In this document: positions 33,752 to 37,427 of the stretch, piece after piece
How the letters are laid out: each line of letters opens with the position of its first letter
How positions within the stretch are numbered: position 1 is the stretch's first letter
Source of the DNA: Gammaproteobacteria bacterium
GTDB taxonomy: Bacteria > Pseudomonadota > Gammaproteobacteria > Poriferisulfidales > Poriferisulfidaceae
Assembly: GCA_028819565.1 (NCBI GenBank)
Contig: JAPPLD010000006.1
Span: 73,299 to 137,298, forward strand
Direction of reading: 5' to 3'
Length of the DNA: 64,000 bases
Notes under the pieces: model-generated
What the model was told of the DNA's origin: nothing
Databases searched by the model: none
Seen by the model: only the letters and a program-made list of their open reading frames with translations
Made by a program: the position numbers and the translations under genes

Positions 33752-36700
33752 ATGCCTAACCTAACGCCAAAGCAGATTGCTGCAGGCAAGTGGCTTCTCA
33801 AGCAGTCCGCTGGTTACCCGGAGGACTTCATTCGCAAGCGCATAGGCGACCTTTTGGGGAGTCTCGACATCGATTATGAAATCAGCTATCCCACGGAATC
33901 TGGGCCAGCGGATATATACCTGCCTCGTCGTAGGACAGTCATCGAAACGAAGGCGCTTGGCTTGGCCGATGACCCGGACAAGCCCCAATCAAGAAAGAAC
34001 AAGGAGTCGCCAAAGGAACAACTTGAGCGGTATCTTCGCGCCGAAATTTCTCGAGAACTTAAATCCGCGCCGCCTGATGGGGGCGAGAGTAGACCGTGGA
34101 CAGGCATCCTGACCGACGGAAGAATCTGGCATGTTTGGCGCTATGCGCATGAGGAGAACGCGGTCGGAGTCACGGTGGAGGCGGCGTACAGCCCGCCTGC
34201 TCCCTCAGCGCTAATCGACCGCTTAAAGCACATTCTCTCGGGGAAACTTGTAGGCAAGCCATGGATTCCCGCGGATCCGCGTCCGATTTTCGAGCCCCGC
34301 CTAGAGCAATTGCGGAAGTTGTACGAAAGCCTGCCCAAGCGGGCTGAAAGAGCGACGGAGACCAAGAGGCGTCTTTGGCTGGAAATGCTGCGTACGTCGA
34401 GTATGGAGCCGGACAGCGAAGCGGCGCGGCAACGATTGTTCGTCGCGCATTCTTTTCTGGTTGCGCTTGCCCGGGGTGTGATTCATGCTCTGGCAAATCC
34501 CGGAGAGGAACCGAATACGGAAACCGTGCTGGGAGATGGGTTTGTCGCCTGGATTGTCGAGACAGTCAAGGGAAAGCAGTGGGCGAAAAGCTTTCTTGGG
34601 GAGATACAGGGATACGATTGGCGCCGCCGACCAGGGGACGTATTGCGTCCGCTCTACGAACAATTCGTCGACGAACGGGATCGCAAGGCGTTTGGCGAAT
34701 TCTATACGCCGGACTGGCTCGCCGAGCTTCTCGTCAGGGAGGTTTGTGACGACTCTTGGTGTGAAACTGCAGTGACGAAGGCGCTGGCGGCGCGCCATCA
34801 GAGCGCCGATTTGGAAGGTGCGGGCGTTTTGGACCCGACATGTGGATCGGGGACGTTCCTATATCATGCGGCAAAGCGAATATTGGCATCTCCCGCCTTG
34901 GCAGATCTCGCAAATTCAGACAAAGCGTCGATAGTCTGCTCTTTGGTGCATGGGATTGATGTACATCCCGTTGCGGCCGAGATTGCTCGCGCCACCCTGC
35001 TGCGCGCCTTGCCCACAGAGCCTCCGCATGGGGAATCGGACCTACGTGTCCATGAGGGGGATGCTCTGCTAATCCACGCAGACGACGAGAACTCGCTCTT
35101 CCGGCCGACGAATGGGGAAATCCGCATTTCAACCCCTAGAGGGGCGGAAGTGCTCCTACCTCGGTCCTTTGTCGAACGATCTGATTTCTCGGATAACCTC
35201 CGACGGCTTGTGCTTTCGGCAGAGGATGGTCGCTCCGTACCGCCGGATATTCTGGCCGTTGTCCCGAGTTCGGATCGGGACGCAATGCGGGAATGCCATC
35301 AGCGGTTTGTGGAGATCATCAAGGACGAAGGTGATTCGGTCTGGACTTGGTACATTCGCAACACCACGGGCCCGCATCGGCTTTCCGAAAAAAAAATTGA
35401 CCGCATTGTCGCCAACCCTCCGTGGGTGAAAATGGCGCATGTCCAGGCACAGGGCCGAAAGCGAGCGATCGAGAAGTTTGCAGCTAGTCTGAACATAAAC
35501 CTTTGGGCTGGCGGCAAGTATGCACCACACTTCGATATTGCGCAGTTGTTCATCAAGCGGACCCGCCAGTTGTATCTGGCCGACCCTCAAAGCGATCCGG
35601 CTGCGTGGCTTGTCAAAAAGGCAGCACTCAAGTCGGGCAACTGGGAAAAATTCCGTCAATGGCACAGTACGGTATGCAAGCAAACGATTGATCTGGAGGC
35701 ACTCAAGCCTTTTGGCGGCGGCGACGCCCGCCGGTGCTGTGCTCTGTTCGATGCTCGCGCTTCGAGCCTGAAGTCTCGACAAAAGCAACTCATGGGATTG
35801 ATCAAGGGAGAGTTGCCGTCCCCGCATGCGAGTCTGGACGACATCCGCGAACGCTTGACGTTCAAGGCTGTTCTTCCCCCCGTTCCCTGTGCGGCATCCG
35901 AATATATCGATGGAAAGGGGAACATCCTTTTCAGTCAAGGCGCCACGATCACTCCCAAGGTGCTAGTGGTCTTGGACAAGGTCGACAAGAGCGATAACCG
36001 CAAGCAATGCCGCGTCACCACAAAGTGCTCCTCACATCCACCTTGGTCGGGGGTTGATCCACAAACAGGAATCGTGCCGCGTGGATGGATTCGAGGTGTA
36101 ATTGCCTCGACCATAGCATTGCCATTCGCTGTCTCTCCGGCGGGTGTGCATCAGGCCTTGATCCCCACGAATAAAAACAGGAGTCTTGACAAATCCGCCG
36201 CCAAGAATTCCGCATTCTGGGAGTCCCTGAATGAAATCTATGAGGAAAATAAGGGGGCAGGCACCCACACGCCTGGCAGTCTGATATCCCGGATAGATTA
36301 TGGCTCCACGTTGAGTGTCCAATTGAATCTTTCCGGTAGGTCAAAGGCTATGGTCGTATATCCATCTTCCGGAGATATCATGCGGGCGTGTCGCATCCAG
36401 CCGGGAAGAGCGATTGTGGATGCCTCGCTGTACTATTTTGTTGCCTCCAGCGCATCCGAGGCCGCCTACTTGGTTGCCTTGATGAATGCTCCCTGCCTAG
36501 CTGACGCTTTTGCGCAGTCCCGTGAGAGCGGGCGCGACTTCCACCTGCATCCTTGGCGCAAGATCCCGATCTGCAGATATGACGGACGGATTTCCGCACA
36601 TGTCGAACTCGCAAAACTTGCAGTTCAAGCCGAACGCATGGTTGAGAAGTGGCTTCACAGCCCTTACAATCCATCGGATCGGTTGGGTCAAGTGGGATTG

Positions 36701-36799
36701 TCGCAACGACTGCGGGGCTTTTTGCGGGCCGAAGGCGTGTTTGCACGCATAGACCGACTCGCGCGAAAAATCCTCCCGGATCAGGCACGCCGCGACTGA
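33752..36799 (+). CDS. type IIG-like restriction-modification fusion (nuclease plus N6-adenine methyltransferase)
   Basis: 1015 residues in one chain. The N-terminus has a PD-(D/E)xK nuclease pattern: D54 in GPADIYL and E65/K67 in TVIETKALG. Residues ~300-330 include the helical linker with FGEFYTPDWLAELLV. Methyltransferase motif I is VLDPTCGSGTFLYHAAKRIL (about 358-377) and motif IV is IVANPPW (about 550-556), the NPPW form of N6-adenine methylases. The last ~350 residues are probably the target-recognition domain. This order matches Eco57I-type enzymes that cut and methylate with one protein. No other subunit flanks it. It sits between aceA and a tRNA operon, a likely insertion spot. Confidence 0.82.
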   Translation: MPNLTPKQIAAGKWLLKQSAGYPEDFIRKRIGDLLGSLDIDYEISYPTESGPADIYLPRRRTVIETKALGLADDPDKPQSRKNKESPKEQLERYLRAEISRELKSAPPDGGESRPWTGILTDGRIWHVWRYAHEENAVGVTVEAAYSPPAPSALIDRLKHILSGKLVGKPWIPADPRPIFEPRLEQLRKLYESLPKRAERATETKRRLWLEMLRTSSMEPDSEAARQRLFVAHSFLVALARGVIHALANPGEEPNTETVLGDGFVAWIVETVKGKQWAKSFLGEIQGYDWRRRPGDVLRPLYEQFVDERDRKAFGEFYTPDWLAELLVREVCDDSWCETAVTKALAARHQSADLEGAGVLDPTCGSGTFLYHAAKRILASPALADLANSDKASIVCSLVHGIDVHPVAAEIARATLLRALPTEPPHGESDLRVHEGDALLIHADDENSLFRPTNGEIRISTPRGAEVLLPRSFVERSDFSDNLRRLVLSAEDGRSVPPDILAVVPSSDRDAMRECHQRFVEIIKDEGDSVWTWYIRNTTGPHRLSEKKIDRIVANPPWVKMAHVQAQGRKRAIEKFAASLNINLWAGGKYAPHFDIAQLFIKRTRQLYLADPQSDPAAWLVKKAALKSGNWEKFRQWHSTVCKQTIDLEALKPFGGGDARRCCALFDARASSLKSRQKQLMGLIKGELPSPHASLDDIRERLTFKAVLPPVPCAASEYIDGKGNILFSQGATITPKVLVVLDKVDKSDNRKQCRVTTKCSSHPPWSGVDPQTGIVPRGWIRGVIASTIALPFAVSPAGVHQALIPTNKNRSLDKSAAKNSAFWESLNEIYEENKGAGTHTPGSLISRIDYGSTLSVQLNLSGRSKAMVVYPSSGDIMRACRIQPGRAIVDASLYYFVASSASEAAYLVALMNAPCLADAFAQSRESGRDFHLHPWRKIPICRYDGRISAHVELAKLAVQAERMVEKWLHSPYNPSDRLGQVGLSQRLRGFLRAEGVFARIDRLARKILPDQARRD

Positions 36800-36901: not shown

Positions 36902-36977
36902 GCGGGAATAGCTCAGTTGGTAGAGCGTAACCTTGCCAAGGTTAAGGTCGCCGGTTCGAACCCGGTTTCCCGCTCCA
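36902..36977 (+). tRNA. tRNA-Gly(GCC)
   Basis: Acceptor GCGGGAA pairs with TTCCCGC, the D-arm is AGCTCAGTTGGTAGAGC, the anticodon stem-loop AACCTTGCCAAGGTT carries GCC, and the TpsiC arm contains GGTTCGAACC. Discriminator T and an encoded CCA end the gene. It corresponds to glyW of the enteric glyW-cysT-leuZ operon. Confidence 0.97.
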
Positions 36978-37016: not shown

Positions 37017-37090
37017 GGCTGAGTGGCAGAGTGGTTATGCAGCGGCCTGCAAAGCCGTGGACGCCGGTTCGATTCCGACCTCAGCCTCCA
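37017..37090 (+). tRNA. tRNA-Cys(GCA)
   Basis: Acceptor GGCTGAG pairs with CTCAGCC, the anticodon loop CTGCAAA contains GCA, and the TpsiC arm reads GGTTCGATTCC. Discriminator T and an encoded CCA are present. It is 39 bases after tRNA-Gly and corresponds to cysT. Confidence 0.97.
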
Positions 37091-37125: not shown

Positions 37126-37427
37126 GCGGGCGTGGCGGAACCGGTAGACGCTGCGGACTTGAGGCCATTGAGTGCTCTTCGGGAAACCGGGGATGCAGAA
37201 CTGCTCAAATTCGGGGAACCCTGTGAAATGGCGATCCCGAGCCAAGCCCGGGAGAGAACTCCCGGGAAGGTGTAGAGACTAGACGGGCAGCGCCTAAGGC
37301 TGGACGGCTAAGGCGAAGGGATAGTCCGGACCACAAACGCCGCACAGCGGCGGCGGCGAAAGCCGTAGCTGGTGCGAAAATCCGCTGGGCTTTGCCCGTG
37401 GGGGTTCGAATCCCTCCGCCCGCACCA
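37126..37427 (+). tRNA. tRNA-Leu(UAA), interrupted by a group I intron
   Basis: Exon 1 is 37126-37160 and exon 2 is 37377-37427. Joined, they give an 86-nt leucine tRNA: acceptor GCGGGCG with CGCCCGC, anticodon stem GCGGA/TCCGC around the loop CTTAAAA (anticodon TAA), a class II variable arm (TGGGCTTTGCCCGT), the TpsiC arm GGTTCGAATCC, discriminator A and CCA. The interruption falls between the first and second anticodon bases, the position of the intron in cyanobacterial and plastid tRNA-Leu(UAA). Without splicing the gene gives no functional tRNA. It corresponds to leuZ in the enteric operon. Confidence 0.94.
37161..37376 (+). ncRNA. group I self-splicing intron (IC3-like) in tRNA-Leu(UAA)
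   Basis: 216 nt. The conserved R element GGTGTAGAGACTAGACGG is at 37269-37286, with GACTA (37277-37281) pairing TAGTC (37322-37326) to make P7, the guanosine-binding helix. The 5' exon ends ACTT and can pair with the internal guide GAGT (37170-37173), placing a U-G wobble at the splice site. An 8-bp hairpin with an AGAA loop is at 37247-37266. The last intron base is G (37376), the omega-G. The layout and core sequences resemble the small Azoarcus tRNA-Ile and cyanobacterial tRNA-Leu introns. It is too short for a homing endonuclease, and none is seen. Splicing itself is inferred. Confidence 0.93.

Follow-up and report, generated by a model that had tools for sequence, protein, structure and literature searches.

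The tRNA-Leu(UAA) group I intron of cyanobacteria and plastids sits between U34 and A35. A tRNA-Leu(UAA) group I intron was also reportedly found in a deep-subsurface gammaproteobacterial isolate, in work of Vepritskiy and co-workers that appeared in 2002 (J Bacteriol 184:1481), and crystal structures exist for the IC3 intron of the Azoarcus tRNA-Ile(CAU) gene. In a 2014 review, cyanobacteria, alphaproteobacteria and betaproteobacteria are listed as the bacteria with group I introns in their tRNA genes (PMC4033280), and introns of the IC3 subgroup are said to be without P5(a-d) (PMC11835236). In cyanobacteria, the transfer of an entire tRNA-Leu locus with its intron offers a precedent, as far as the work can be judged from its mention as a reference in PMC3984707 (Rudi et al. 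2002).

The locus described here lies in the window, i.e. the whole stretch of 64,000 nucleotides that was analyzed, and belongs to a sponge-associated bacterium of the genus Candidatus Porisulfidus, a gammaproteobacterial sulfur oxidiser that serves as outgroup to the SUP05 sulfur oxidisers (PMC9123188). The window contains a Gly-Cys-Leu tRNA cluster, and all the features located below are on the + strand. The first two genes, tRNA-Gly(GCC) (36902-36977) and tRNA-Cys(GCA) (37017-37090), were identified by ARAGORN and by Rfam, with respectively 71.4 and 60.7 bits. The third, tRNA-Leu(UAA) (37126-37427), was revealed by ARAGORN in intron mode as 'gactt-Intron-aaaat', with an intron of 216 nt and a mature tRNA of 86 nt. 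Exon 1 (37126-37160) carries the acceptor strand GCGGGCG and ends with U34, the intron occupies 37161-37376, and exon 2 (37377-37427) starts with A35 and encodes the CCA end. These boundaries are identical, to the base, to those proposed in an earlier note on this DNA. The split gene was missed by ARAGORN without introns and by the Rfam tRNA model at its gathering score, and tRNAscan-SE 2.0 was not built to find group I introns in bacterial tRNAs (PMC8450103). Essential tRNA genes are in this way overlooked by standard annotation when they are split.

The Rfam Intron_gpI model (RF00028) gave a match of 39.7 bits at 37151-37339, with E = 1e-8 for the 551 bases searched. The default scan of the whole window was silent because this score is under the gathering score of 50. 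The low score is a point against the assignment, and the gathering score is a curation threshold and not a structural feature; the failure of default tools to see the split gene and its intron is a sensitivity limit, not counter-evidence. A structure from P1 to P10 was written from the window sequence and compared with an alignment of 44 Leu(UAA) introns (five belong to the genus, 36 came out of a motif scan of genomes, and two plasmid types and one huge phage complete the set), covariation being counted on the 43 distinct ones. In P1, the exon bases ACTT (37157-37160) are paired with the guide GAGT (37170-37173) as had been proposed, and the U-G pair at the 5' splice site is present in 43/43 distinct sequences. 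P10, of 2 bp, joins UU (37168-37169) to AA (37377-37378) and aligns the 3' splice site, with 95% of its cells paired. P2 (37176-37182 with 37187-37193) is closed by a GAAA loop and shows changes on both sides in all seven pairs, while P3 (37201-37206 with 37285-37290) is 100% paired, with such changes in four of six. Covariation also supports P4 (37211-37215 with 37236-37240) and a short P5 (37220-37221 with 37230-37231) without P5abc. P6 (37241-37243 with 37269-37271) is prolonged by P6a (37247-37254 with 37259-37266; both-side changes in 7/8 pairs). The R element announced by the earlier note is placed at 37269-37286, and P7, the guanosine-binding helix that crosses P3, was found exactly where it had been predicted (37277-37281 with 37322-37326) and is 100% paired. 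In P8 (37291-37295 with 37311-37315; inner extension 37298-37301 with 37306-37309) the outer pairs covary; weak pairs are the fifth and, in the inner extension, the first. P9 (37330-37333 with 37370-37373) and P9a (37338-37343 with 37347-37352) both covary, as does P9b (37354-37357 with 37362-37365), a hairpin with a GAAA loop inside P9. The last base of the intron is the expected terminal G (37376).

Over the whole structure, 94.8% of the pair cells hold standard pairs, versus 82.5% in shuffled alignments and at most 46% when the partners are slid by one to three columns. Both-side changes are seen in 42 of the 65 pairs among the 43 distinct introns, and the covariation score of 0.310 is to be compared with 0.104 for shuffled and at most 0.066 for slid alignments, none of 500 shuffles being as good. 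Chance pairing is excluded, since covariation exceeds both controls. Most of the alignment rows were picked because they match 20 bases spanning the R element exactly, and the invariance of P6 and P7 is therefore partly a selection artefact. In two of the rows that were not picked by this motif, the last P7 pair changes from A-U to G-C (enterobacterial plasmid) or to U-A (phage). A minimum free energy fold of the whole precursor was also computed; it did not recover the pseudoknotted fold (z = -2.6) and the comparative structure was preferred.

The intron thus displays the P3-P8 and P4-P6 domains with P7 crossing P3, all helices covarying, together with the splice-site U-G (37160 with 37170) and a G as final base, which are hallmarks of group I. 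Its length of 216 nt, the short-loop P5 devoid of P5abc and its position between U34 and A35 of the anticodon loop are those of subgroup IC3, and the two GAAA loops (P2 and P9b) and the missing P5abc fit this type. These data support the assignment, already made from the sequence, to a small Azoarcus-like (IC3) group I type inside the UAA anticodon. Six-frame translations of the 216-nt intron did not contain any endonuclease-sized open reading frame, the mark of an endonuclease-bearing mobile intron.

Compared with the described systems, the window intron has in common with its cyanobacterial and plastid counterpart the insertion site, the group I nature and the IC3-like core. It resembles the Azoarcus intron in core architecture, in the R element and in the GAAA loops of P2 and P9, whereas the host tRNA, the site and the P1 and P10 sequences are different. 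The intron of the deep-subsurface isolate reportedly agrees with that of the window in gene, intron class and bacterial class. The closest likeness was found in alphaproteobacterial tRNA-Leu(UAA) genes (for example Hoeflea, L048; Beijerinckiaceae, L122; Sphingobium, L113), in which site and helices are the same, length and sequence are similar and the acceptor stem is mostly of the window's type, whereas the lineage and the neighboring genes differ. To our knowledge, these alphaproteobacterial introns have not been described separately. The intron kind itself is already known, and the new information resides in the donor-type exons.

The earlier note linked the site to cyanobacteria and plastids, but a restriction to these was not borne out when GTDB species genomes were scanned for the 20-base R motif. 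Among at least 120 loci with this motif, at least 43 are Leu(UAA) introns at the same site. Most of their hosts are alphaproteobacteria; the others include some beta- and gammaproteobacteria (Carnimonas), acidobacteria and one Bacteroidia MAG. Plasmids and phages also bear introns at this site. The label 'cyanobacterial' is hence wrong for the tRNA-Leu(UAA) intron site.

The origin of the gene was examined through its exons. In intron-bearing alphaproteobacterial genes, the acceptor strand is GCGGGCG in 17/29 cases and GCGGACG in 10 more. In a phylum sample, the gene starts with GCC in 57 of the 58 same-class genomes listed, versus GCGGGCG in the window gene; GCGG(G/A)C starts were found in genomes outside the class, GCGG(G/A)CG opens the gene in 5/5 intron-bearing genomes outside the class, and exon 1 of one intron-free genome outside the class (G475) is one base off that of the window. 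A class-wide search for alpha-type acceptors returned as UAA genes only those of the window's genus; the remaining genes, leading into GATTT, look like Leu(UAG) when read from their sequence. The exons that best match those of the window are from alphaproteobacterial intron-bearing genes (identity 0.85-0.87), against 0.72-0.74 for the sister families. In the two other families of the order the Leu(UAA) gene is intron-free, and in one sister family (L345) an intron-free Leu gene stands in the same Gly-Cys-Leu arrangement, behind a tRNA-Cys of gamma type that is nearly identical to that of the window. The window acceptor differs from the GCCCGGG of the sister families at three pairs, and the T arm and the variable arm differ as well. 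Since the exons are of alphaproteobacterial type and the sisters are intron-free in the same operon, the data argue for the arrival of a whole gene that replaced the resident one in place. A replacement as one event, from a donor of alphaproteobacterial type, is probable on these grounds, and the lateral acquisition suggested by the earlier note is thereby retained. The capacity of tRNA acceptor stems to change by compensatory substitution can be held against the exon argument. In Carnimonas (L068), a GCGGGCG acceptor and an intron are also found near Gly and Cys tRNA genes, perhaps as a second whole-gene event of this kind.

The main competitor is the entry of the intron alone into a resident gamma gene, by reverse splicing or by homing with an endonuclease from elsewhere, the likeness of the exons being then a coincidence or the product of a short co-conversion. 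The position of the split gene in the resident Gly-Cys-Leu operon would suit such a move, as would its anticodon arm, which is like that of some intron-free gamma genes, such as L326, which is 0.84 identical to the exons of the window. The acceptor, T arm and variable arm are nevertheless unlike those of the sisters, the acceptor matches the intron-bearing alphaproteobacterial type, and the intron is devoid of an endonuclease frame, so that we consider this route unlikely. Since donor and recipient can be told apart by their exons, this locus allows a distinction between replacement of the whole gene and homing of the intron.

The second option of the earlier note, the re-targeting of an Azoarcus-type tRNA-Ile(CAU) intron to tRNA-Leu(UAA) in a gammaproteobacterium, was not supported. 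IC3 introns in tRNAs for Arg(CCU) and in those with a CAU anticodon do have this core. However, among the non-cyanobacterial introns compared, those most identical to the window intron come from alphaproteobacteria or acidobacteria, where many already occupy Leu(UAA) and others sit in other tRNA genes; CAU-anticodon hosts are absent (0/35) from the best 35 introns listed. Moreover, the site labels cluster on the intron tree, CAU needing four changes and Arg-CCU two. The tree is poorly resolved (126 columns, 14/181 branches starred), has too few columns for the donor to be named by phylogeny, and was used solely for this clustering. Re-targeting is very improbable.

Vertical descent from an ancient ancestor common with cyanobacteria, followed by loss in nearly all gammaproteobacteria, would account for the identity of the site with that of the cyanobacterial and plastid intron, which is held to be ancient (PMC4033280; PMC4476775). 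It is hard to reconcile with exons that are not of gamma type, with the intron-free sister families and with the class sample, in which Leu(UAA) is intron-free in 290/370 genomes and the split pattern occurs in at least three, from two genera, and we give it hardly any credit. The three genomes are a lower bound because the pattern misses some, for instance G051. The GTDB class Gammaproteobacteria includes the former betaproteobacteria. Group I introns were detected by the RF00028 search in at least 53/370 genomes of the class, again a lower bound since the search filters missed the window's own intron, and the introns with the highest scores mostly lie at sites other than Leu(UAA).

The need for the gene was assessed in the genome (1.8 Mb, 96.67% complete). 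A second tRNA-Leu(UAA) was not found among the 43 other Rfam tRNA hits. The other tRNA-Leu genes have the anticodons CAA, CAG, GAG and UAG, and one partial hit at a contig end reads, from its sequence, as tRNA-Val(GAC). Four UUA codons occur in eleven large open reading frames, two of them in that of isocitrate dehydrogenase. As the split gene is the sole Leu(UAA) gene found and UUA codons are used, it should be essential and would have to splice. It is kept with 96-99% identity in four other genomes of the genus (G001-G004; two genus members are L131, OY288106.1, and L152, MRSX01000001.1), in which the neighboring MotA/ExbB-like protein is only 74-96% identical; no copy was found in a fifth relative whose genome is 76% complete. 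The core pairs are all intact, and the base changes among the five genomes preserve the pairing of P6a and P8. The gene might instead be a decayed copy that no longer splices, UUA being read by another tRNA whose gene could have been missed in the incomplete assembly. The lack of a second Leu(UAA) gene among the hits, the intact core and this conservation in five genomes speak against such a copy, which we find scarcely credible. Just upstream of the tRNA cluster, the window encodes a DNA methylase of type IIG-like restriction-modification (33752-36799; N6_Mtase, with weak Eco57I/MmeI matches), which stands in the same place in G003 and is absent within 1.5 kb upstream in G001, G002 and G004.

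We conclude that, very probably, a group I ribozyme splits the sole Leu(UAA) gene found in this genome and the whole split gene has replaced the resident one. Splicing activity is predicted from the sequence with high confidence. The precursor would be transcribed, presumably together with tRNA-Gly and tRNA-Cys, and the intron would then fold; a guanosine bound in P7 would attack 3' of U34, at the U-G pair of P1, and the freed U34 would attack after the last intron G, aligned by P10, the joined exons giving a normal 86-nt tRNA-Leu able to read UUA. The ancestor of the genus would have received the split gene in one piece, from a donor of alphaproteobacterial type, and this gene would have displaced the intron-free resident of the Gly-Cys-Leu operon. 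How endonuclease-free introns pass between lineages is unsettled. As a tentative proposal, which we regard as somewhat more doubtful than plausible, endonuclease-free tRNA group I introns might owe their spread mainly to whole tRNA genes that contain them, are carried by phages, plasmids and other mobile segments, and then replace resident tRNA genes. If so, the Porisulfidus locus would be a case caught in a resident tRNA operon, with both foreign exons and intron.

Split tRNA-Leu(UAA) genes are also present on plasmids. In pCTX-M3 (NC_004464.2, L319:3958-4256) and in LR890263.1 (L320:2962-3258), an unannotated copy lies beside an AAA-ATPase gene and aac(3)-IId, a neighborhood that was read in these two records only. 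Its site is that of the window gene, its intron is 73-74% identical and its acceptor is GCGGACG; it is located on mobile resistance segments, whereas the window gene is in a resident operon. The plasmid gene was matched in 1,280 of 72,556 plasmid records (1,257 over at least 80% of the gene), whose hosts are many Enterobacterales, Acinetobacter and others. Of 5,426 complete E. coli genomes, 635 carry it, and 589 of the 670 places are on plasmids. Perhaps this gene points to the chromosomal origin of the aac(3)-II segment. The plasmid intron closest to that of the window (79.6%) is the 204-nt tRNA-Leu(UAA) intron of a Bradyrhizobium plasmid (CP094621.1, L321:2958-3248), near trb conjugation genes. 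Although all phage introns known by 2014 were in protein genes (review PMC3984707), split tRNA-Leu(UAA) genes were detected in a 735-kb phage (LR756501.1, L318), in two IMG/VR contigs with respectively tail and lysozyme genes (L195) and rIIA/rIIB (L179), and in about 40 further viral contigs. Plasmids and phages are possible vehicles for such genes, and no link to the gene of the window was seen.

Introns in other genes were encountered as well. tRNA genes with group I introns occur in many gammaproteobacterial genomes (L288-L315), and a recurrent site, in a tRNA read as Gln(CTG) by ARAGORN with the exons gactc/tgaat, was found in at least 11 loci. The gammaproteobacterial genome G026 has two introns of the window's type (L006:557-872 and L019); the host tRNA of the L006 intron is read as Leu(CAA), and since its exon 1 has C as last base, a C-G pair would replace U-G at the splice site. 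In Gordonia phage Daredevil, an unannotated tRNA gene that resembles Lys(UUU) and contains an intron of 238 nt (L316:2379-2690) lies near the integrase gene. In Pelagibacter phage HTVC120P, an IC3-like intron core (L317:2463-2655) separates two coding sequences, both annotated as capsid protein; these are probably parts of a single capsid gene interrupted by a group I intron.
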